From NCBI GenBank assembly GCA_947168815.1, contig CAMVNG010000004.1:1-64000 (forward strand): a DNA stretch of 64,000 nucleotides, read 5' to 3'. The notes under the pieces are model-generated. The model ran no database searches. It was not told where the DNA came from and was given only the letters and a program-made list of their open reading frames with translations. Of this stretch, positions 26,623 to 45,050 are shown one piece after another (position 1 is the stretch's first letter; every line of letters starts with the position of its first letter). Position numbers and translations under genes: made by a program. The stretch comes from an uncultured bacterium (lineage in GTDB: Bacteria > Patescibacteriota > Gracilibacteria > Absconditabacterales > Absconditicoccaceae).

Positions 26623-26764
26623 TTAACAAACTAATAGTATATAAGAAGATTAAGAAGACATAAAGTCTTCTTTTTCTTTAAATAACAAAATGTTAAAAAA
26701 GTGTTAAATAAAGATAAATACTTGATTTTATTGGTAAAATATTTATAAGCTAAACATATGGAAT

Positions 26765-26848
26765 GCCCGGGTGATGGAACTGGTAGACATGCTAGACTCA
26801 AAATCTGGTGGCTGCAAGGCCGTATGGGTTCAAGTCCCATTCCGGGTA
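26765..26848 (+). tRNA. tRNA-Leu(CAA)
   Basis: GCCCGGG...TCCGGGT acceptor, long variable arm, anticodon loop CTCAAAA, T-arm GGGTTCAAGTCCC. Confidence 0.93.
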
Positions 26849-28501
26849 ACAAAGGGTACTTTTTTCTAACAAATCCCTTAAAACATTGTAGAGAATTGTT
26901 GTATCGCTGGTTTGAAGTCAATTTGTTTTTGAATAAATTAAAGAGTCTCAAAATCGAACTTCTAGGATTTGTTTTCTTAATCATATATCTCATTGTTCCC
27001 AAAAAGATAAAGGGTTTCAAATAAATTCCTTTATTTTTTTTAATGATTTATTTCTGTCTATAGTCATAACTTCATTATTTTCTAATTGATTCTGAATGTC
27101 TTTATATTCGGCATCTAATTCAAATCGTTCATCATCTAATTTTTTTAAAAGACTATCATTAATAGAATCTTTTAACATAAGATTTTCTATTTTTTTCTTT
27201 CTCTCTTCTATTTGAGAAATTCTATGTTTTTTGCTAATTATTATTTTATCCCAATCTTTTTCTTTTATATTCCAAAGTCTTTCTATTATAGATTCAAATA
27301 AATCTAAAAGAGGTTTTGGAAATTTAACAGATTTAATCATTTCTAAAGCAGTATTTTCTAATTTATCTTGAGGAATATGATCTCTTTCAGGACATCATTC
27401 AAATTGACATCAATAATAAGGATAAGATTTACCCGTTTTTTGTTTAACGGTAACCCATCATGTGAGTTTTCTTCAACATCATGTACAGGTAACCATATGT
27501 TTTAAAATAAAAGCATCTCATTCCTTTTCTCTAACTCTTTTTTTGTTTTTAGATTGTAATTTATCTCTAATTTTATTAGCTGTATCTAATGATATAATTC
27601 ATTCATGTTGTCATTCAATAAGTTCATTAATATCCCAATCAGGATAAATACAGTATCATGCATAAAAATATAATCTGTGAACCTGTAACATTTTTTCAAT
27701 ATAGGTTTTCCACATTTTACCTCATTTAAATCATTTTAATCATTTTTCTTGAAAAAATTTATATAACTCCATCTGCCCCATATTAGGATCATTAGCAAAT
27801 AATTCTAATCATTCTTTTAATATAGGAGCAACATCCCAATCAATTTCATCAACATAAGAAGATTTTCATCATGATCTAATTCTTTTGTATCAATATGGAA
27901 CAAATGTAAAAGGTCGATATCATTGAAGTAATCTTCATCTTCTACCTGTAAGGCATAGTTTTTTAATTTTATTTCTTTGATATCATGCATATGCATAAGT
28001 AATAGCTTTAACTAATTTATCTTCATCTGTTATATCCTTAGTGTTTCATTCAATATCAATAATAGTTACTCAATACGCCTTTATTTTAGCTTCCATCTCA
28101 AAAGCTACTCAAATATTATCTAAGTCAGGTCTAGATATTCTGGTTAAATCCCTACAAACAAAATGAGTAATATTAATAAATTTATTATTTCTTTCTTTTA
28201 TATAATTAATACATTCATCAAAAGCCTTACGATGTTCCTCTTTTCATGAAATTCATTCTTCTCTAAAAACCTTTTCAACTTCAATATTATTTTTTTTACA
28301 CCATTCTCTTGCTATTTCTTCTTGTGTTTCTAATCAAAATCATTCTCTAACTTGTTTATCACTAGACACCCTACAATAAATGACAGCTAAAGGTTTAATA
28401 TTGTTTTTTAATTCCCTTTTAACAATTTTATTACCATCAAACTTATAATTCTTAATAGAATGTTTAGTTTGTAAATGTTCTGTTTTTTTACTTCAAACCA
28501 T
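26792..28501 (-). CDS. Large serine recombinase (569 aa); reading frame ends inside the antisense of tRNA-Leu
   Basis: AVIYCRVSSDKQVREGFGLETQEEIAREWCKKNNIEVEKVFREEGISGKEEHRKAFDECINYI...THFVCRDLTRISRPDLDNIGVAF; C-terminal SFWEQGDIGLRKQILEVRFGDSLIYSKTNGLQTSDTT. Start-stop distance divisible by 3; stop TAG at 26792-26794. Confidence 0.88.
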
Positions 28502-28872: not shown

Positions 28873-30090
28873 TTAAAATTGGCTTATGATTGGATTTATT
28901 TTTGAAATAATTTTATTTCTTTTTTCTTCACATAAAAATCATAGGGCGTATTCAGAAACGTTGCTCATTTTTTCAAAGTCTATTAAACTAAGCACTTTTT
29001 GAATTAATTTATAATGTCTAAAATGAACAAGAAGTCATAAATAAGAATCTAAAGATGGTAAATTAGGACAAAAATGAGTAGCTTTTAATTTTTTATTAAA
29101 ATTAGAAATACTCCTTTTAGAACGTTTAATATGAAAAGGTTTTATTACTGCTCATAAGAATTGTACACCATGGGAAATAGGTTGAAGATAAAGTTTATTG
29201 GGATGTAATGTTAATTTTTCTTTTTCAAGGAGATAATCACGTATAATAGGTATTAAACTTTTAAGATATTCTTTATCTTGATGAATTAGAATAAAATCAT
29301 CTACATATCTTCAATAATACTGTATATGTAAATTATCTTTAATAAAATGATCAAAATCATTCAGATAAATATTAGAAAAAAGCTGAGAAGTTAAATTTCA
29401 GATAGGTAATCAACACCTTTCTCAAGCAAAAAATAAAGATTTTGTTTTAGGTAATCAATTATAATCCGATGGATTACCTTTAAATATTCAATTTTCTGTT
29501 GGATTATTATAGATAATATCATGAATTATTTTAATAAGATAGTCTGGAAAATCTCATGTAATAGGTGAAAGTTTATATAATGAATTTTTAGGATGTATTC
29601 ATGGTAAAATATTCCAATTTCTAAGAATACAATAATTTTTTTCTCGTAATAAATCTCTATTGATAGACATAAAATATCATTGAATATCTAACTTTAATAT
29701 CCATCATTCTTTTGTATAACAATTAGAACAACTTCTCATAAATTTAGATATCCTTTCTATTCATTTACTTGTTCATTTTCATTTACGGCAAGAATATGAA
29801 TCATAGATAAATTGTTTTTCCCAATAAGGAGATATACAATCATAAATAAGATGATGAACAATTCTATCACGAAAATTTCATGCAAATACTTCACGTTGGA
29901 TAGGTTCTTTTTGTATAAAATAAATGCTAGGAGATATTTCATAACATCAATTATAAATATCATCACAAAGTTTATCTAAATTATATTCTAAATTTTCGTA
30001 AAATCTTAAATGGCTTTTTGATTTAGTTTTATGTTTTCTAGCTTCAAGATAAGAATAATATAAATATCTACGTAAAGTTTCTTTATCCAT
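28873..30090 (-). CDS. DGR-type reverse transcriptase (405 aa)
   Basis: GLPIGNLTSQLFSNIYLNDFDHFIK (IGxxxSQ signature of DGR RTs) and IQYYGRYVDDFILIHQD (YxDD). Many TGA=Gly, so the ORF track missed it. A TR and Avd are adjacent. Confidence 0.95.
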
Positions 30091-30097
30091 GATATTA

Positions 30098-30475
30098 TTA
30101 TTTTAGTAAATTATTTTGTTCTTTTAATTTATTATTACAAAAAGTTTCTCGTTTAATTAATTGATTTGAAATTTCTCTTATTTTAACACTATTTTCCTTA
30201 TATTCATTATGAGAAATATCTCAAATATCATTACACAAACGCAAAGCAATTAGAGTTAGTTCAATATCTTTTTTAGCTTGTTTAAGATGATTAATTTTTT
30301 CTTCAAATCAGAAAGCTTTTGTAGTTAATGATATTTCAGCAACAGCATCAAATGAATACTCTTTTATCTTTTCTCAAAGAGAATATTTGGAAGATTTAGG
30401 AAGTTTAGAGACTAATTTGCAGAGTTGAATTAAAGTAGTATAACCTTCTTTTAAAACAATTGGAGTCTCAGTCAT
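30098..30475 (-). CDS. avd: Accessory variability determinant (Avd)-like four-helix protein (125 aa)
   Basis: MTETPIVLKEGYTTLIQLCKLVSKLPKSSKYSLGEKIKEYSFDAVAEISLTTKAF...LRLCNDIGDISHNEYKENSVKIREISNQLIK; position between TR and RT; size and helical pattern typical of Avd/S23-like. Confidence 0.88.
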
Positions 30476-30620: not shown

Positions 30621-30820
30621 ATGAATGCTTGAAACAGCGGACAGAGAGCCCGTTAGCACGGTTGTTGTTGTTATTCGCGTTCACGTTAGACGAATTCAGG
30701 TTGAGGTTACGGGCGTTATTAGAACCAGCAGAGTTAGGAGAAGACGACCAATAGTTACCGTTGGAACCCTGATTCTTGAGGTCAGCAGTAGAGTAATTAC
30801 GGTTACCTGCGAACGATAGG
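30621..30820 (-). repeat. DGR template repeat (TR)
   Basis: Minus-strand sequence GGTAACCGTAATTACTCTACTGCTGACCTCAAGAATCAGGGTTCCAACGGTAACTATTGG...AATAACAACAACAACCGTGCTAACGGGCTCTCTGTCCGCTGTTTCAAG; ~200 bp matching VR1 and VR2 except mainly at A positions. Confidence 0.96.
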
Positions 30821-31027: not shown

Positions 31028-31630
31028 TTAGTTATTATTAGAAATATTTTGAAAGTCTAATGGATCATCATCTACCAAGTTTTCAATGTCGGTGTTTACA
31101 TCAGAAAAATCTAAACTAGGAATCTTTTCTCCAATAATTTGTGGTGTTATAATATTTGGTATAAGTTTATATTTTTTAATTATTTCTTCTATCTCATTAA
31201 GCTTTTCATAGAATTCTTTGAATGGTATTTCTTGTGCTGAGATTTCATTATATTGTTTATTTGTGATACTGTTTAATTCACGAATAAATTCATTCACAGT
31301 AGCTGTTGATATTTTAATATCTAAAGATTTTTGTCAGTCGTTTTTAACAATAGGTTTCCAACTTCAATTTCATTCTTTATCTTGAACCACAATAAACGAA
31401 TATCATGCATCTTTTAAAAGTGAAAAATATTTCTTTCAAGATTCTCTAGGGAATCAAGCATATCTTGTTGTTCATTGAGCAACAATTTTAAATCAAAGAA
31501 TATAAGATAAAGCTTCAGCATCAGTTTCATATGCTCTGTAAAAAGGTTGACGAGGTGGTAAAAAGAAAATGATGTAATTTTTAAGATTTGAATCAACTTT
31601 CCAAGCTCTCCAAATTTCTTCTATTTTCAT
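31028..31630 (-). CDS. MutS N-terminal (domain I)-like small protein (200 aa), DGR-adjacent
   Basis: PFYRAYETDAEALSYILGFKIVAQGTTRYAGFPRESGKKYFSLLKDAGYSFIVVQDKEG resembles the MutS domain I pattern FYELFxxDAxxASxxLxIxLTxR...AGxPxHxxxxYLxxLVxxGYxVAIxEQ. Confidence 0.72.
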
Positions 31631-31865: not shown

Positions 31866-34800
31866 ATGAAAAAAGCTATGAGATTTATGAGTCTATTGGT
31901 ATTAATAGTATTCCTTGGTTCTAATTTCTTAACACCAATTAGTTATGCTATGGATGAAAGTTGAAATACCATAGATGCTTCTTCAGAGGATAGTAGTACA
32001 GAAGAATCTGGAAGTAATTCTGAAGATTCAGTGGTATCTGAAGAAGAGAATACTAATCCAGAAAGTATTACAGATACAGAAGAAGATAGTGATGAAAATA
32101 GTAATGAAGATAATAATGATGAAAATATAGTTATGGTTGAAGATTATACACCAAATCAATCAGTAATTTCTGGTGATGTAACAGAAGAAATAACAGAAGA
32201 TATTGATTCAAATATACAAGAAGAAACACAAGAAACACAAGAAATACAAGAAGAAATCAATTATAATAAATATTGATTAGCATCTTTAGCAAATAAACTT
32301 TGAATAGATTGGGATAATGAAAAAGAAATTTATGCCAAATTAGCTGGTATAGAAGATAATTATCAATGAACAAGAGAACAAAATGAAAAAATTAGAGAAT
32401 GGTTAATAGATAATTCTGAAAAAATAAAAGAATATAATGCTATTAAAGCTAAAACAGATTCTAATAATACTGTTTTAGATGCCGCAAAATTTTTTCATAA
32501 AAGGGATAATGAAGAAGGAGTTTTAACCGACGCTCCTTCTTCTTTTTTTAGAGAAAATAATGAGGTTCTAGAACAAAGTCTTACATGAGAAGTTGAAGAA
32601 ACAGAGATAGATATTGCATGGAAGACGTTAAATAAAGATTCTATTATAGAATCAAAGAATTTTAGAAGTTTATGAATTAAAGTAAAAGTAGAAGCATTAT
32701 CATGAACTTTTCCTGAGTGAACCTATGCTGAAATATCTTCTGTTTATTGAGAAGAATATGAGAACGCTAAACAAAAGATTATAGATGATCCAGAAAATAA
32801 TGTTACAGAAGAAGATGAAATGTTTACTTTTGATATTAAATTTTTGTATAAATTAAGTAGTTGAGATGTTATAGAAGTACAACCAAAAGAAAATAAAGTA
32901 CAAGTAACATTTGATTATGATAAAAATGATGAGTTAAAACAAGCAGATACAACAGAAGAACAAGAAATTCAAATCTATCATATCAATGATAAAGATGAAA
33001 AATGAGAAAAAGTAGAAGAATGAGAAGAAGTAGTAGAGAAAATAGAAATTAATGAAGGAAAGAGTGAAGATATTAATAATGGAGTAGTAATTGATGCAGA
33101 AAGTTTTTCATATTATACTATAGTAGTACAGAGAAGAGAAGAAACTCTAGAATCTACCCCTACACAGACATGGCAATATGGAGAAGATTATTTTACAATT
33201 AGTATAGCTAGACCAAGTAGTTTGGATAATGATGAAAATTATGCAAATCATCCATGAATTACTATCATGGATCGTAATCTATGAGCAACAGCTACATGAT
33301 ATGGTGATAGTAATACAGCATCTACAGATTCATATGGATATCTATATCAATGGTGAAATAACTACTGATTCCCATATTCAGCAGCATCAGGTGACATACT
33401 TACAGGTGTGGGACTACAATGGAATGATAGTTATAATGATATGTGATATGTTAGTAAAAAATTTGTAAATTGAAAAAGTTTTAATAATGATGTTTGGAAC
33501 AATAGTGGCCATTATGATGATGTATGGTGATGAACAGGCGATAATTCAACTAACTGGTGGTGAGCAAAATTAACAAATTATGAAGAAAGACAATGACCAT
33601 GTCCTGAATGATGGCATGTACCAAGTGTGTGAGAATGGTGACTTTTGATTAAATATTGGGATGTTTTATCGGGTAATAATAGCACTTGATGAAGCAATTG
33701 ATTGTTCTATTTAAATAGCAATTATTCTGCCTTCCAAGAGTATTTCAAGCTTCCGTTTGCTGGTAGCCGTAATTACTCTACTGCTGGCCTCAAGGATCAG
33801 GGTTCCTACGGTTACTATTGGTCGTCTTCTCCTTACTCTGCTGGTTCTACTCACGCCCGTCTCCTCGACCTGAGTTCGTCTCACGTGCGCGCGAGTAGCT
33901 ACGGCAAACGTGCTACTGGGCTCTCTGTCCGCTGTTTCAGGGACTCATATGTGGCTTCTCCTGAAACCTCTAATCTAGTAGATACACAAGCCTGGGTGAA
34001 AGGTAAAGATTTCGAGACTATCACAATTTCAAATCCAGAAAATAGTAATGAGTGATTTACAATCATGGATCGTAACTTGTGAGCATCAATCTCGTGAACT
34101 GTATGTGATAAAACTAATGATACATGAGCATGTGGATTCTTATATCAATGGTGAAATAACTACTGATTTCCAATCACAGAAACTGTAACTCCAGTAACTA
34201 CATGACTGACATGGAATAATGTATATAACAACCATGGATATTTTAGTACGAATTTTATAAATTGAAGTAGTCATGATTATGATGTTTGGGATGGTACTAA
34301 TCCAACAGCAAACGATAAAGAACATCATGATTGAGTATGGTGATGAGCTAATGATGATCAATCAGCAAATAATTGGTGATTAGATTCAAATAATCCAACA
34401 GATAGACAATGACCGTGTCCTGTATGATACCATATACCTAGTGCATGAGAATGGAGTAAAATATTCGAATATTGGTGTAAAAAAAATCCTAGTAAATGTG
34501 ATATGGATAATATGCATGAAGAAGTATGATTATATTATAACTACAATGACCAAGATATAGGAACAAATTTTGCTGGAGACCTTAAGCTTCCGTTCGCAGG
34601 TCGCCGTAATTACTCTACTGCTGACCTCAAGTTTCAGGGTTCCAGCGGTCTCTATTGGTCGTCTTCTCCTTACTCTGCTGGTTCTAATATCGCCCGTAAT
34701 CTCTACCTGGATTCGTCTTACGTGAACGCGGATGACAGCCGCTACCGTGCTTACGGGCTCTCTGTCCGCTGTTTCAAGGATTCATATGTGGCTCCTAAAA

Positions 34801-37800
34801 CCTATACCTTAACCTTTGATTCTCAAGGCGGTAGCGAAGTAACAAGCCAGACAGTTGTAGAAGGACAAACTCGAAGCAGACCAGCTCAAAATCCAACAAA
34901 AACTAACTGGACGTTTGATAATTGGTATACTTCGACATGATATACAGCACCTTTTGATTTTTCAGCTCCAGCATATGCAAATACAACAGCATATGCAAAA
35001 TGGAATGATGGTAAAGCTCCATCAAATGTAAGTGTTACAACTACAAGCAATGAAAAAGCTACAAGTCAAACAGCTACCTTGAGCTGTACAGATGAAATCT
35101 GAGTAACAAAATATTATTGGTGAACGAGTAGTTCTCCAAATGATAGTGCATATACACCAGTGACAAGCACAACAAATTTTTCTACAACACAACCAGTGAG
35201 TTCAGCGTGAACATACTACTTACTATGTAAAGATGCTGCATGAAATACTGGTGCTAGTGTAAGTAAAGCATATTATACATATAGCGTGCAAAATATGCTA
35301 GATAAAGTAGCATGAACACAGTGAACCCATAATACAACAAACTATGAAACAAATGGAAACTCAATGTGAACATATATAATTCCAAGTGGGACTACAATCA
35401 CATTGAATAGCGCATCATTATATTGAGATCCAATAAGTAGTCATGATACCTATGCATGATACACTACATCAAATAGTGGTACACCAACAACTTCTAATCC
35501 AACAATAACTTTGAATACAACATATTATAGATGGTATAATAGAGATTCTCATACCCTTACATTGAATAAATGAACATGAATTTCTTCTGTAAGTGGTGCA
35601 TGAACAATTAAACACTGAGCTACTGCAAATATTGATGCAACAGTTACAAATGGATATACATGGGTAAATTGGACAAAAACATCATGAGATACACCAGCAA
35701 GTGCTACTAATAAAGCAACGACAGTAGTAATTACTCAAGATACGGTATTAACTGCAAATGCTAGTGATCAAACAGCTCCTGTATGTACTATTACTGCTCA
35801 GCCAACAAGAACATCAATGTCATTAGTAGCTGGATATAATCAATGAACAGTTACTTTTACATGTACAGACTCAGTAGGAGTAGCAACTAGTAATTTATCA
35901 GCAAGTAATATTACCTATAATAGTGATATTGTAACATTAAGTAACTTTACAGCATGATGAACAGCTACATCCAAAACATTCACATTTACTTATTCAGCTT
36001 CAGCAGCAGGTTCTACTACATTTACTCTAAAGGCCTGAGCCGTATCAGATGCAGAATGAAATCCAAATGCAGTTACAAGTGCGACTAATACTGTAACGGT
36101 AGATACTACAGCTCCTACAATTACTATTACAGAGCCAAATGCATGAACATGGACTCAATCAAAGTCAGTGACTGCATCAGTAAATGATGGAACGTTAACT
36201 ATGAAAGAATCAACGAGTTCAACATGTAATTCTTCAGTTGAAGGTTTTGTAAGTTATGCAGATAAGAATTATATTTCAGAATCAGATAACTGAAAATACA
36301 TCTGTTATAAAGCAGTAGATAATGTATGAAATACAAGTTATCTTTCTTCTGCTAAAGTAGAAAAAATCGATAGAACAGCACCTATATTAAGTGAAAAAAC
36401 AACATATAATACTTCATGGTATACATCTAATCAAACCTCTACATTTACCTATACTGATGCATGAGCAGGAATTAATGAATGATATAATACAGATGAATGT
36501 ACAATTTCTACCGAATGAACAGCTAGTACATGTCAAATCACTCCTAATATTTGTGATAAGGTAGGAAACTGTAATACAACAAAACAAACATCTAATTCAA
36601 TCAAATTAGATAAAACAGCTCCTACATTTAAAGAAAAAACAACATATAATACTTCATGGTATAATACACCACAACAATCTATATTTACGTATGAAGATAC
36701 TGTTTCATGAATAGATGGAACTACTACTACATCGTGTACAATTAATGAAGAATGAACGACAGCTACATGTACAGTAGCTAATACAAATATCTGTAATAAT
36801 GCATGATTATGTAATACTACAAATTTGACTTCAAATAGTATTAAATTAGATACAACAAAACCAACATGTAAAATCGAATGAAATCCATCTACTCCAACTA
36901 ATCAAAATGTTAATTTAAGAGTAGTTTACTTATCAGAAGTTAATCAGATAACAGATGGATATTCATGGGATAATGAAACATATTCTAATACTCAAATACG
37001 TAATGTAAGTGCTAATGGTACTTATACAGCATATGTAAAAGATGCTGCATGAAATACATGAAGTTGTAGTGTTACTGTTGATAAGATAGATAAAGTATTA
37101 CCAATAATTACTATCAATAATCCAACTACTACTCCAGCACAATCTAAAACAATTACAGCGAGTACAAATGAATGAACATTATATATGGCACAAACAAACA
37201 ACAACACCGATTGTAAAGTAGGTTCATCATTAGAATTCGGAGATTATGCATCTCTCACATTTGGTTTAGAAGCTAATAATGGAACATATGTATGTTATAA
37301 GGCAATAGATGCTGCATGAAACGTAAAATATGAACTTTCAGATCTAATAGCATGAATTGATACTACATGACCAATATTAGGATTTAGTGCTAATGTTTTA
37401 GCATGACCAGTTAAGAGTAATACAGTAACTGCTACATGGTGAGATGCTACAGTGAAGAAATGGATGTATTCAAATACTTCAACATGTTCTAATACAGAAT
37501 CTGATTATAACAAAACAGATTCTGATAGTATGAATCAGACTACACAAGCTAATAATGGAAAATATATCTGTTTATATGCTAAAGATTCAGCATGAAATGT
37601 AAGTAAATTAGCATCAGCAAATCCAATCAATATCGATATAACTGATCCTACATGTTCAATTTCATGAAATCCAGAAAATTATACAAATCAGAATGTTACT
37701 TTAACAGTAACAATGACAGATACAAATATTGATAATAATGGATATACATGGAATGATGGATTATATTCAGATAACAAAAATCTTACTGTAAGTTCTAACG

Positions 37801-40800
37801 GAACCTATACAGCACATGTAAGAGATTTAGCAGGAAATACATGAAGTTGTAGTGTTACTGTAACTAAAATCGATAAAACAAATCCCGTAGCAAGTATTGA
37901 TACAACAGCTACTCTTAAATCAGCTTCTCAGACTGCTACATTGTCTTGTACAGATTCAGTAGGAATAGCAAAATATTATCGATGAATAACATCCAATCCA
38001 GAAGATTCTGAATTTATAATATTAACAGAATCAACTACAGAATTTTCTACAACTAAGACAGTAAATGAAGCTGGAACATATTATCTCTTATGTAAAGATA
38101 CAGCATGAAATATAAGTAATTCAGCATCAAAGACATATCATAGTTATGAAGTTCATAATATGTTAAATGCAGTAGATAAAGCTGAATGAACATATAATAC
38201 AACCAATTATCCACAAAACAGTGTTGCAACTTATCTAGCACCAGCATGAACTACGATTACGTTCGCAAAGGTTTATTCTCTACCAACTTATTCAACAGGT
38301 GATCAATATGTATGATATACAACATCAGCGAGTTGAACTCCATCAAATGATGCTAATGTCTTATTAAATGATAATTCAACATATTATTTCTGGTTTAATA
38401 GAGTTAAACATGCTTTAACCTTACAGATGAGTACGGGTATAGAACATATTTATTATAAGATAAATAGTGGAAGTGAATATGTGGTATCAGAAACAACATC
38501 AGTACAAATGAAAGAATGATCTGATGCTTATGCTTATGCAACTGCATCTGCTGGATATCAATTAACATCAGCATTTGAAAATTATAATACAGATACTCCT
38601 AAAACATGGAATACTATTACAGCTCAGCAGGTATTTGCACCATTAGCAACAAAGAGAACAGATTTAAGTTATAGAATTAAATATCAAAATTCTGCATGAA
38701 CATCAATTTCATGAGATGTATTAGTTGAAAATCAAACTTTTGGAGATGAAGTAACAGTGTTACCATGAGAAATAGCATGATATATTACACCATTATCAAA
38801 AGATATTACAATAGCAGTAACAAATCCTGATGTAATATTTGTTTATACTCCAAAAGAAGATATCGTATATACTGTTACTTATAAAGATACTAATGGAAAT
38901 TCATTATTAACAACAAAAACGGTTAATACATGAGTAATGGATACAGAAGTAACAGAAAATGCACCAGAAATTGATTGATATACGGCACAAACAGGTACAC
39001 TCAGTATTACATTAAAAGCAACGAACAACCATATCGATTTTGTATACAATCCAAATAATAATATCACTTATACAGTAAAATATATGTCATGAGCGGTATC
39101 AATAACAGGGGATAAAGTTGTTGAAAATCAAACAATGGCGACAACAGTAAGTGAAGATGCTGAAGTAATTCCATGATATACAGTAATAACATGATCAAAA
39201 GAATTGAAATTAGCAGCAAATAATAATGTTATTACATTTGATTATACACCAAATGAATATGTAATAAGATTTGTTGATTGAAGTGGAAGTTATACACCAG
39301 TGATTCGTTCATGAGATTATTTGTCTGTTGTTAATCAGAATCCTCCAACATGGACAAAAGCATGATATACAATTCATTGGGATAAATCTATTCCAGAAAC
39401 AATGCCACTAAATGGAGAAACAATAACAGCTACATGGACGGCTAATACCTATACAACATATAAAGTAAAACATTGGAAACAGAATATAGAAGATGATGAA
39501 TATACAGAAATAATAGCAGATGAAGAACATCCAACATGAACAACAGCACAACAAACAGCTGCAGTTGCAAAGCCATATGTATGATTTACAGCCAAAGCAT
39601 TTAATCAGGAAACAATAGCATGAGATGAAAGTACAGTAGTAAATATCTACTATGATAGAATTAAATCAAATGTAAGTTATAACTATACAAATGATCCAGC
39701 AATAGAATGAGCTCCAGCATTACCAGCAACAGCTGAATATAAATATGGAGCAGAGGTAGACGTTGCAGTATTACCATCACTAGCCGGATACACCTTCTCT
39801 AATTCATGGAATGCAGAATGAATAGTAGTAAATGAATGAAAATTCGTAATGCCAGCAAATGAGGTAGAATTTACAGGAACATGGACAGCAAACAATTATA
39901 CAATAACCTTTAATGCAAATGGACATTGAACAGCTCCAGAAGCAATAACACAAGCTTATAAAACAACTGTTACAGTTCCAGCAGAACCAGAAGTTGCAGG
40001 ATATACATTTGGAGGATGGTATACAGAAGCAGAATGTGAGAATGAATATGAATTTACAACAATGCCATTAAACGGAAAGGTATTGTATGCAAAATGGACA
40101 GCAAATACGAATACAGTATATAAAGTAGAATATTATCAACAAAATATAGAAAATGATGAATATAGTTTTGTAGAAACATGAATCCAATATGGTACGAGTG
40201 ATACAAAATGAATAGCTATTGAAAAATCTTATGTTGGTTTCACATTTAGTTGAGAAAATGAAAATACAGTAACAAGTTGAAATATTGCATGAAATTGAAG
40301 CTTAGTACTAAAGATGTATTATGATAGAAATAGTTATGATGTAAGTTACAGTTATACAAATAATCAAACAATAGCTGATGCTCCATCACTACCATCTACA
40401 GTAAGTTATAAGTATGGAGCAGAGGTAGATGTAGCAGTATTACCATCATTAGTAGGATACACCTTCTCTAATTCATGGAATGCAGAATGAATAGTAGTAA
40501 ATGAATGAAAATTCATAATGCCAGCAAATGAGGTAGAATTTACAGGAACATGGACAGCAAATACGAATACAGCATATAAAATAGAACATTATAAAGAGAA
40601 ATTAGATTGAACATATGAAAAGGTAGAAACAGAAGAAAAAACAGGAAAAACAGATACTACAGCAACAGCAACTCCAAAAACAGATTATGAAGGATTTACA
40701 TATAATTGAGATGTAGAATGAACAAAAGTAAGTGGAAATATCGCATGAAATGGAAGTCTTGTCTTGAAGTTATTCTATACAAGAAATAGCTATGATGTAG

Positions 40801-43800
40801 AATATCAATTTGCAAATACACCTAACGGTCATTCAACATTACCAGCTACAGTAAGTCATAAATATTGAGCAACAGTTGATATAGCAGCAAATGCAACAGC
40901 ACCATGATATTCTTTTGCATGGAATAGAACAGAAAGCTTCGAAATGCCAGCTGAAGATGTAGTAATTACAGGAATATTTACAGCTAATACAACAACTCCA
41001 TATAAAGTAGAATATTATTATCAACAAGCTAATGGAGAATATCCAACAACAGCAACTAGTACAGATACTACAAGAAAATGAACAACGGATCAAACAGCTA
41101 GTGTTACAAATGAAGATAAAACTCCAACAGAAAGCTGATATGCTTTTGATGATGCAAATACTAACAATGTATTAGAATGAACAATAGCATGAAATGAAAG
41201 CTTAGTACTTAAAGTATATTTCAAAAAACAATTTACAGTAAGATATTTAACAGGAGAAAGATGAACATTCGAAATTCAAACAACAAATAATATAGATTAT
41301 GGTACATTTACACCAAATTTTGAATGAAGTACAGATAATCATGAAGATTGATATATGTTTGCAGGATGGGCCCCAAACAAAGCAGCTACTGTAACAGAAA
41401 GTGTTGATTATGTTGCACAATGGTATGAAGACTTTAATCATAATAATCAAAACGATGCTTATGAAGATAAATATACAGTAATTATTACTTATGTTTACTC
41501 TAGATGAGGAATAGCAGCTCAAACATATAGTGTATCTAATCAATTAAGTTGATTCACATATAATGTAGATTCTCCAGATATACCAAATTATCATGCAGAT
41601 AAAACAAATGTAAGTGGAACAATTACAGGGGATGTAAATGTAACTATAACCTATACACCAAACAACGATACCAATGGAAATGAAATAGCAGATGAAGATG
41701 AGACAAAACATAAAATAACAGTATATTATAATTACAGTAGATGAGGTATTGCTTCAGAAACTCAAAGCTGAGAATATTTAAGTTGAATTAATTATTCATT
41801 TACATCACCAGATATTGACTACTATACACCAAACACAATAGAAATTAGTGGAACAACAACATGAACAGTAAGTTTTACAGTAATCTATTCTCCATTACAT
41901 GATGTGAATAATAATAAAATAGCAGATGAACAAGAAACACCATTTACGGTTACATTCTTACCATGAGAACATGGAACGCTATGAGGAACAACAGAATATT
42001 CAGTGTTTTCATGATTAAAACTTTCAGATATTGAATGATATCAAACACCAACAACAACAGCAAATACACATTATGTATTTAGCTGATGGAGTCCTAGTTT
42101 AAATACTAATTCAAAAGTTTTATCTGATGTTACTTATACAGCGATTTGGTGAGAAGATAATAACAATGATGGACAAAACGATGAATTTGAAACAAAGTAT
42201 ACAGTAACTTATAGGGATTGAGTAGATGGATCAGTATTTGAAGAAGATATTCATACTAATATTCTATCATGAACAACTACTCCAACACATACTAATCCAA
42301 CAAGATTGAATTATGTCTTCTCAGGATGGACACCAAGTATAGCAGAAAAAGTAACCGCTAATGCTATTTATACAGCCACATGGAAAGTTGATTCTAATAA
42401 TAACTGAGTGGCAGATGAAGATGAGACTTATATATTAACAATTAATTATGTATACAGTAAATGATGAGAAGCAGCTGCTACACATTCAGAAAGTATATTA
42501 CAAGGAGCTCAATATTCTGTAGTATCTCCAAATATAGCAAATTATCAAACTACAGATACAACAGTTAGTTGAACAATGCCATGAGAACATACAACAATTA
42601 CTGTTATCTATACTCCTATAACAGATGTTAATCATAATGATATTGCCGATGAAGAAGAAGCTAAATATACACTTACTATCCAATATCAGGATACAAAATG
42701 AAATACAGTTTATGATGATTATACAGCACAATATGTATCATGAGCTAGTTATGAAAAAGCATCACAAACAAAAGAACATTATACAATTATTTCATGAGAA
42801 AATGTTTCATGAGTAATGCCTGCAGATAATCTTACATTAACAGTTATTTACAGTGCAAACTTAGATGCAAATGATAATGGAATCGCAGATCAGAATGAAA
42901 CACATTATACATTAACAATCCATTATGTTAATGCACAGAATGGAACATTATATCCAGATTATTCATGAAGTTATGTAGCTTGAGCAGAGTATATTATAGC
43001 TTCTAATACTTCAGATACAAATTATACAATAGAGAGTTGAAAAGAAATAGTTAACTGAATAATGCCTGTACAAAATACAGCTATTACAGTAACATATACA
43101 GCAAAAAATGATGCTAATGGAAATGGTGTAGCAGATGAAGATGAACCTCATCATACTTTAACAATCCATTATAAAAATAGTAAATGATCAACAGTATTCC
43201 CAGACCATACAGAAAGTGTTGTAGAATGAGCAAGTTATATAGTAAATTCACCAGAAAAAACACATTATACTATCGATAAGCCAATAGTATCATGAACAAT
43301 GGGTGAAGAAAATATTACAGTAACAGTGACTTATAACACAACAACAGCAGATACGAATAATAACTGAGTAGCAGATGAAGACGAAACAGCTCATCAATTA
43401 ACAATTAATTATAACTATTCTAGAGGAGGACAAGCTAGTGAAACAGTTACTGCAAATTATCTAAGTTGAATAAATTATAGTGTTATCTCTCCAATAATTG
43501 CTAATTATACAGCAAATATAGCAACAGTAGAATGAATAATGTGAGATGCAGATAAAACAATTAATGTTATTTATACACCAGATGTTGATAATAACAACAA
43601 TGGAATAGCAGATGCTTTAGATTCAAAATATACAGCAACTGTTCACTATGTATATTCTAGAGGTTGAGTTGCTCATGCAGATAAAACACAACAAGATATC
43701 CTAAGTGGATTGAATTATAGTATTACTTCACCAACAATTGCTCATTATACACCAAATAGACAAACAGTATCGTGAACAATAACAGGTGATAATGTAGAAG

Positions 43801-45050
43801 TAACGGTTACCTATACACCAGTAACTGATGTAAATGGAGATGGTTATGCAGATGAAGATGAAACAAAATACACAGTTATCTATACTGATTGAGTAGTGGA
43901 TGTTGTTGTATTTGCAGATAAGGTATTCTCAAATATCCTATCATGAACAATAACTCCTACGTATAATGGATCGTTGATAAGAACAGATTATTTATTCTCA
44001 TGATGGACACCAAGTGTTGCAACAAAGGTAATATGAAATGCTACTTATACTGCACAATGGAAAGAAGATATGAATAATAATGGAATTGATGATGATACAG
44101 AAGACAAATATACTATTACAATCAAAGATTGAGAAACAATTATTTCTACACAAGAAATAGTATCTTGAGCAAAGATTAATTTACCAGCTATACCAACAAA
44201 GGATGGATATGTCTTTGATGGTTGGGATTGATTACCAGATGATGGAAAAGCTACAAACGAGAATCTAACAATTACTGTAAAGTGGAAGAAGGTAGAAATA
44301 CTACCAGTAGATAACACACCAAGAGCATGAGGAGGTGGTGGAAGAATAATTTCAAATAATACAAGTTCTTCTAACACTACAACAAATGAACATGGATCAG
44401 CAGAAGAAAAGACATGAGCTGTAAATACCTGAGATGTAAAGAATACAGACGATAAAAACATATCAGATATTCTAAATACTCATACAGATTCAGAGAATAC
44501 TGGACAAACAAATACTACATCACCAGTTGATTCAAACATTGAATCAAATGAAGTTACAGATGCATATACATGGGCACATAATAATAGAATTACCACAATG
44601 CCTTCAATTGAAGAAGCAACGCCAGATGGATATGTTAAGAGGTGACATTTAGCAAAAATGCTAGTAAACTATTCAGTAAATGTTCTTTGAAAGAAGATTC
44701 CTGCAATACCAAAAGAATGTAAGAATTGGAGTGATGATAAAGATTTTGAATCTGATGAAATAAGAGATTATGCAGAAAAAGCATGTGCATTATGATTAAT
44801 GTGAGTAGATACAGAGAATCATAAATTTAATCCTAATCAGGAAGTAACAAGAGCACAATTGGGTACAACAATCTCAAGAATGCTTTATGGAGATAAATTT
44901 CAATGAGGATTCCCATATTATGAAAAACATCTTAAAATATTAAATCAAAAGAATATTATGAAGAATGTTGAAAATCCACAAGATAGAATTGAGCTAAGAA
45001 AATGGGTATGGATAATGTTAATGAGAGTAAAAGACTTAGAAAAAAACTAA
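31866..45050 (+). CDS. Giant DGR-diversified surface protein (~4394 aa): signal peptide, two FISUMP modules with VRs, InlB/Flg_new and MucBP-like repeats, D-x-N-x-N-G-x-ADEDE repeats, C-terminal SLH-like region
   Basis: MKKAMRFMSLLVLIVFLGSNFLTPISYAM signal; ITIMDRNLGAT...YQWGNNYGFP...GPCPEGWHVPSVGEWG modules; continuous frame with very many TGA (Gly); length 13185 nt divisible by 3; terminal TAA. Confidence 0.9.
33750..33950 (+). repeat. DGR variable repeat 1 (VR1) in FISUMP module 1
   Basis: LPFAGSRNYSTAGLKDQGSYGYYWSSSPYSAGSTHARLLDLSSSHVRASSYGKRATGLSVRCFRDSY; hand alignment to TR gives ~22 substitutions at TR adenines and 2 at non-adenines in the core. Confidence 0.95.
33934..33967 (+). repeat. 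8-bp inverted repeat just 3' of VR1
   Basis: GTTTCAGG (33934-33941) ... CCTGAAAC (33960-33967), perfect 8-bp stem, 18-nt spacer. Confidence 0.6.
34587..34786 (+). repeat. DGR variable repeat 2 (VR2) in FISUMP module 2
   Basis: LPFAGRRNYSTADLKFQGSSGLYWSSSPYSAGSNIARNLYLDSSYVNADDSRYRAYGLSVRCFKDSY; hand alignment to TR gives ~19 substitutions at TR adenines and 1 at a non-adenine. Confidence 0.95.
39749..39893 (+). repeat. Near-identical internal repeat copy A in giant gene
   Basis: GAGCAGAGGTAGACGTTGCAGTATTACCATCACTAGCCGG...ACATGGACAGCAAA; matches copy B at 40417. Confidence 0.85.
40417..40561 (+). repeat. Near-identical internal repeat copy B in giant gene
   Basis: Same 145-nt length as copy A, differing at only a few positions. 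Confidence 0.85.

Follow-up and report, generated by a model that had tools for sequence, protein, structure and literature searches.

Adenine avoidance and a deficit of TGA glycine in the template of a diversity-generating retroelement resident in a code-25 genome

Diversity-generating retroelements (DGRs) rely on a reverse transcriptase (RT) which copies a template repeat (TR) with random errors at adenines, the cDNA then overwriting the variable repeats (VRs). Their RTs carry an IGxxxSQ-type motif in the place where those of group II introns have QGxxxSP. In the templates, AAC and AAT codons allow wide sampling without stops and, in the BPP-1 system, the adenines of AAC have a higher mutation rate and a distinct error profile (PMC12875486). 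This published rule concerns stop avoidance, whereas the present analysis deals with a Gly codon containing a mutable adenine, a situation which arises under genetic code 25 only. In the literature searched, there was no paper in which the terms DGR, genetic code, TGA and glycine occur together.

We have analyzed a stretch of 64,000 nucleotides (hereafter, the window; GC 28.9%) belonging to a 1.29-Mb Absconditicoccaceae genome in which TGA encodes Gly (genetic code 25). Between 28.9 and 34.8 kb, the window contains a DGR composed of an RT, an Avd-like gene, a TR and two VRs (Table 1). As in BPP-1-type and cellular DGRs (Patescibacteria, Bacteroidota etc.), the RT has IGNLTSQ and YVDD motifs, a candidate Avd-like gene is present, the TR is intergenic, the TR/VR differences are directed to adenines, the variable codons are AAC/AAT, in compliance with the published rule (PMC12875486), and the VR ends a FISUMP domain. 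Unlike the known DGRs, on the other hand, this one resides in a host that reads TGA as Gly, has two VRs within a single gene of about 4,400 codons whose strand is opposite to that of RT and TR, and harbors a MutS-domain-I-like gene between TR and target.

Layout of the DGR and code of its host

Table 1. Features of the DGR and of its target gene in the window
Feature	Position	Strand	Description
DGR-type RT	28873..30090	-	405 aa; IGNLTSQ and YVDD motifs; RVT_1 3e-15
Avd-like accessory protein	30098..30475	-	profile bAvd
TR	30621..30815	-	intergenic, 47% GC; Gly GGT/GGG only; variable codons nearly all AAC/AAT
MutS-domain-I-like gene	31028..31630	-	PF01624 4.7e-6; between TR and target
Target gene	31866..45050	+	about 4,400 aa; 184 TGA-Gly; two VR-bearing Fib_succ_major domains followed by repeat domains
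VR1	33754..33948	+	C-terminal end of first Fib_succ_major domain
VR2	34591..34785	+	C-terminal end of second Fib_succ_major domain

The code assignment rests on TGA codons found in frame where many genes have a conserved Gly, open frames of the window having up to 184 of them; in the RT, 18 of the 20 glycines are TGA and two are GGT, with no GGA. IGNLTSQ, which is of the IGxxxSQ type, and YVDD are found both in the RT of the window and in its aligned relatives, and identify a DGR-type RT. The Avd-like gene matches bAvd at 4.1e-9 with 37.3 bits, the Pfam cut-off being 40. The TR is non-coding and close to the RT, as expected of a template, and is flanked by the Avd-like and the MutS_I-like genes. 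PF09603 (Fib_succ_major, FISUMP) spans both VRs, which form the C-terminal part of the fold. Comparison with the TR reveals 28 mismatches in VR1 and 21 in VR2, of which 23 and 19, respectively, fall at TR adenines (82–90%, where at least 75% is taken to define a DGR). On the sequence record, these two differently mutated VRs show past DGR activity, and from the adenine-biased mismatches we infer that copying and overwriting have probably taken place here. A search of the whole genome yielded no further TR/VR copies. Overall, what the window holds is an ordinary DGR residing in a code-25 genome, with a codon pattern that is real and mostly generic.

As for the surroundings, a large serine recombinase (26792–28501, minus strand; Resolvase domain 3e-20) overlaps with its 3′ end a tRNA-Leu(CAA) (26764–26850, plus strand), and this arrangement resembles one boundary of an integrated element beside the DGR. 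Homologues of the MutS-domain-I-like gene also neighbor the DGR RT, at a distance of 1.3 kb or less, in loci L061 (PF01624, 6e-8), L042 and L040, and it is a candidate accessory gene for DGRs of this group.

Adenine avoidance in the repeats and in other templates

According to the sequence-only reading of this locus, TR and VRs lack TGA glycine and have only GGT, GGG or GGC while TGA is common around them, they form GC-rich islands in an AT-rich gene, and nearly all variable TR codons are AAC or AAT. Our counts bear out each of these observations. The Gly codons are four GGT and one GGG in both TR and VR2, and four GGT, two GGC and one GGG in VR1, the two GGC being products of mutagenesis (GAC>GGC and AAC>GGC). 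Outside the repeats, the 318 Gly codons of the target gene consist of 184 TGA (58%), 85 GGA, 40 GGT, 5 GGC and 4 GGG. A-ending Gly codons therefore number 0/5 in the TR versus 269/318 in the rest of the gene (Fisher P=1.1e-4), the independent sample being limited to five codons because the VRs are copied from the TR. The GC content is 0.47 in the TR and 0.52–0.55 in the VRs, as compared with 0.31 for the target gene outside the repeats, and the jump takes place at the repeat edges, with 0–1 A-ending codons per 10 inside and 1–6 per 10 outside. The codons changed by adenine mutagenesis are AAC or AAT in 17 cases out of 20 for VR1 and in 15 out of 15 for VR2.

What the first reading overlooked is that, beside TGA, GGA and nearly all other silent A-ending codons are missing from the TR. 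Indeed, only 2 of its 34 codons in four-fold boxes end in A, as against 63% in the gene, and these two (GCA and TCA) sit at the very ends of the repeat. Since Gly is conserved in the Fib_succ_major fold, the fold itself or the local base composition, instead of the DGR, might be considered the cause. This explanation, to which we give a negligible chance, is refuted by six VR-less homologous C-terminal segments of the same genome, whose GC is 0.28–0.35 and whose 37 Gly codons comprise 25 TGA, 9 GGT, 2 GGA and 1 GGG; thus, a low TGA usage is not a trait of FISUMP domains without VR. As to a drift of the VRs toward AT between rewriting events, the non-adenine mismatches are too few to tell.

For comparison, RT relatives were taken from 357 genomes of the class, named genomes and viral contigs, and TR/VR pairs were extracted by their adenine-biased mismatches. 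The resulting set comprises 15 distinct TRs of code 25 and 133 of the standard code; the genus is represented in the survey of the class by three genomes, including the present one. The core analysis was done on the mutagenized cores of 14 code-25 TRs, i.e., 12 local pairs plus those of G117 and G083, which came from whole-genome searches. A relaxed TR/VR search at 11 further RT-bearing loci found no local pair, a whole-genome search in G007, G044, G017 and G034 found no pair, and scanning the viral contigs with the code-25 RTs as single queries found no relatives. The code-25 DGRs L041, L042, L043, L045, G117 and G083, from other genomes of the class, likewise have a FISUMP-type TR with GGN glycines amid TGA-rich genes in AT-rich genomes; the GC of the first four TRs (0.35–0.42) is below that of the window TR. 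In G083, one RT copy is accompanied by a TR (C27:1986-2174) that pairs with a VR on another contig (C82:1528-1716), where a second RT copy resides; this reflects either cross-feeding between DGR copies or a fragmented assembly. The same genome contains two FISUMP C-termini (L286 and L302) which are 62–68% identical to known TRs, one of them at GC 0.26; by sequence, they look like old VRs in which rewriting has ceased and which are drifting AT-ward.

Under both codes, A-ending codons of all four-fold boxes are depleted in TRs as compared with the remainder of the target gene. For instance, the odds ratios (ORs) of GCA, GTA, CCA and TCA are 0.12–0.19 in code-25 and 0.14–0.45 in standard-code TRs, and the summary OR of the silent A-ending codons is 0.15–0.18 and 0.34, respectively. 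In the TR cores this depletion (OR 0.15–0.43 under both codes) concerns codons whose mutation leaves the protein unchanged. Furthermore, AAC is favored over AAT in all sets (OR 2.5–18), which agrees with the published behavior of AAC adenines (PMC12875486), and TRs in general prefer C in two-fold Y codons, AAY included. TGA, GGA, TCA and the like are thus missing from the window TR mostly as they would be from any DGR in an AT-rich genome, and the GC-rich island is largely a consequence of general adenine avoidance. The sequence-only reading had seen here an unusual coupling of code reassignment and DGR design; because the bulk of the pattern is generic and also present in standard-code TRs, the pattern per se is not such a coupling, and what survives of the claim is the TGA-specific excess described below.

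Two other proposals concerning adenine usage were discarded. A model of "adenine burn-off", which assumes that C, G and T take the place of silent A in equal shares, was not adopted: it fits the window and the low-GC standard-code sets better than simple renormalization, and is far inferior for the other code-25 TRs (lnL -169.1 vs -153.4). AGA, as a codon newly permitted to mutate under code 25, is rare in both sets (0.8% vs 1.1% of the A-bearing TR codons), with no sign of use. Among the standard-code DGRs, the TR of L086 (7329–7447, minus strand) has an apparent in-frame TGA which is TGC in the VR; it appears that a standard-code template, being untranslated, can hold a stop which becomes a sense codon through mutagenesis.

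TGA in code-25 templates

Generic avoidance is insufficient for the whole pattern. In the cores of the 14 code-25 TRs, TGA accounts for 3 of the 44 codons that are TGA or GGT/C/G, as compared with 514 of 628 in the flanks. Because the flanks favor TGA so strongly, general adenine avoidance would still leave room for many TGA: from the generic OR (0.16) one would predict 21.5 of them in the cores (sd 2.8), or 14.5 when the lower confidence limit of this OR is used, against the 3 observed. In these DGRs, TGA is depleted about 14-fold beyond the silent A-ending codons (OR ratio 0.07 [0.03–0.17]), and also relative to GGA (OR ratio 0.12 [0.05–0.43]). The TGA:GGA ratio is 3:5 in the cores versus 514:171 in the flanks, where stratification by locus leads to an expectation of 6.8 TGA out of 8 (P=0.002); this contrast is based on few events, namely the 8 A-bearing Gly codons of all TR cores, and was borderline with the first 12 loci alone (OR ratio 0.19 [0.07–0.99]), the inclusion of G117 and G083 bringing it to P=0.002. 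Of the other codons with a non-silent A, AGR-Arg is also depleted beyond silent codons, much as TGA is (OR 0.05), and AGY and TTA are depleted no more strongly than silent codons. Finally, in code-25 genomes, the conserved glycines of the fold are encoded by TGA in 0/21 cases in VR-type segments versus 5/9 in VR-less ones (P=9e-4).

The TGA-specific excess favors the idea that glycine is being protected, because TGA>TGN changes Gly into Cys or Trp while GGA>GGN is silent. The proposal of the first reading, selection protecting structural Gly, thus gains from the 14 code-25 DGRs, although most of the signal it was built on is generic adenine avoidance. We lean slightly toward the view that reassigned TGA is under purifying selection in code-25 DGR templates, being the sole Gly codon with a non-silent mutable adenine. 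The new part, as far as the literature searched goes, would be quantitative in nature, in that code-25 templates purge TGA beyond the general rule, and to this we attach the same guarded preference.

The exclusion is not absolute, as TGA occurs in the TRs of L042, L045 and L061; these cases weigh weakly against it, none of them involving the conserved glycines scored above. L042 has one core TGA, located outside the conserved-Gly motifs scored and retained in the VR, and its TR is apparently intact. The single TGA of L045 is at the 5′ edge of the TR, ahead of the first mutated A. The TR of L061 contains two TGA, i.e., two of the three core TGAs, and one of them reads TGT in the VR, which is the Gly-to-Cys change foreseen by the first reading for TGA as a mutable codon. 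No YVDD or IGNxTS motif was found in any frame of the L061 contig; its RT appears broken and the DGR inactive, and a template no longer writing would be free to accumulate TGA. Alternatively, the loss of the motifs may be an assembly fault.

Possible causes of the TGA deficit

In our account, to which we assign a probability of about 0.68, this is an ordinary DGR, selection confines A to the sites where it is wanted, and code-25 TRs keep or regain GGN glycine. Each TR adenine would be a mutable position, and the wording of the TR would be stamped onto the VRs; selection would retain A in AAC/AAT where diversity is useful and strip it elsewhere, so that in a 29%-GC genome the removal of A would leave a GC-richer island of T/C/G-ending codons having exactly the length of the repeat. 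Under the standard code no Gly codon is harmed by adenine mutagenesis, the A of GGA being silent. With code 25, the Gly codon preferred by the host, TGA, is vulnerable, any change of its A giving Cys (TGC, TGT) or Trp (TGG), and for this reason code-25 TRs would retain or recover GGN glycine in spite of what the genome prefers. The DGR, the adenine avoidance and the TGA excess are observed, and protein-level selection as the cause of this excess is what we infer. Several points count against this account: the TGA-versus-GGA contrast is built on few events, silent A-ending codons are also depleted, for which protein protection alone is no explanation, AGY and TTA are not depleted beyond silent codons, L042 retains its core TGA, and GGT>TGA takes two steps via GGA, so that the deficit could be partly kinetic.

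The last point leads to the main rival, which is mutational inertia along the path GGT-GGA-TGA. Given generic adenine avoidance, glycines of GGN origin would rarely pass through GGA intermediates, and the way to TGA would be barely travelled, which would require no selection directed at TGA itself. In line with this, A-ending codons are depleted in every box under both codes, GGT is forced to reach TGA through GGA or through TGT, a Cys codon, and the events that distinguish TGA from GGA are few. However, TGA:GGA at equilibrium should equal that of the flanks, and it does not; moreover, the non-A third bases of the other code-25 TRs are equilibrated with the host, so time for change existed. 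We consider inertia a serious but doubtful explanation. It is also conceivable that TRs are poor in A and rich in C for reasons pertaining to the nucleic acid (cDNA synthesis, VR pairing or retrohoming efficiency), with the loss of TGA as a by-product. The depletion of silent A, the preference for AAC over AAT in all sets and the effects that the AAC context has in BPP-1 on mutation rate and error profile (PMC12875486) agree with such a cause, which nevertheless predicts neither that TGA is rarer than GGA nor that AGR is rarer than silent A-ending codons, and which we hold to be unlikely.

The sequence-only reading had offered, as an alternative to selection, the recent acquisition of the repeats from a standard-code donor, which in its broader form would apply to the entire DGR, newly arrived from a GC-richer genome and not yet adapted. 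Even with AAY set aside, C-ending codons are overrepresented in the window TR (11/33 Y-ending codons vs 199/1604, i.e., 12%, in the gene; P=0.0018), its best match in the comparison is a standard-code Patescibacteria MAG (L068, 126/174 nt), and the RT clade is present across many standard-code phyla. Yet code-25 L042 matches the TR about equally well (122/173), and no close donor of the window TR was found in the comparison set. The cassette as a whole speaks for long residence: the RT with its TGA glycines, the Avd-like gene, the MutS_I-like gene and both target flanks are equally code-25 and AT-rich (23–31% GC for the last three), the GC island stops at the repeat edges, and the nearest RT relatives, code-25 ones included, are at most 50–57% identical. 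Because the window RT forms a long branch of unsure placement in the RT tree, no donor can be named. As for the excess of C, the preference for this base in AAY and two-fold Y codons is common to TRs generally, and the other code-25 TRs have an equal TGA deficit without GC excess in four-fold codons: their non-A third bases are 0.17/0.12/0.71 (C/G/T) as compared with a host expectation of 0.16/0.11/0.73. These texts are therefore old in their hosts, yet without TGA. Recent acquisition is accordingly disfavored for the cassette and, all in all, quite improbable; a GC-richer past is possible for the window TR alone, whose C-ending excess is modest and unexplained.

The data call for caution before a GC-rich TR/VR is taken as a sign of horizontal transfer, and they reveal an avoidance of silent adenines under both codes which goes beyond what protein protection can explain. 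Code-25 DGRs represent a natural experiment, in which a mutagenesis-proof codon (GGA) and a mutagenesis-sensitive one (TGA) specify the same amino acid in the same template. Their TGA:GGA ratio gauges how strongly selection shields the structural residues of a hypermutated domain, which codon bias usually makes hard to see. If our account is true, a change of genetic code has subjected a hypermutation system already in place to an additional design constraint.
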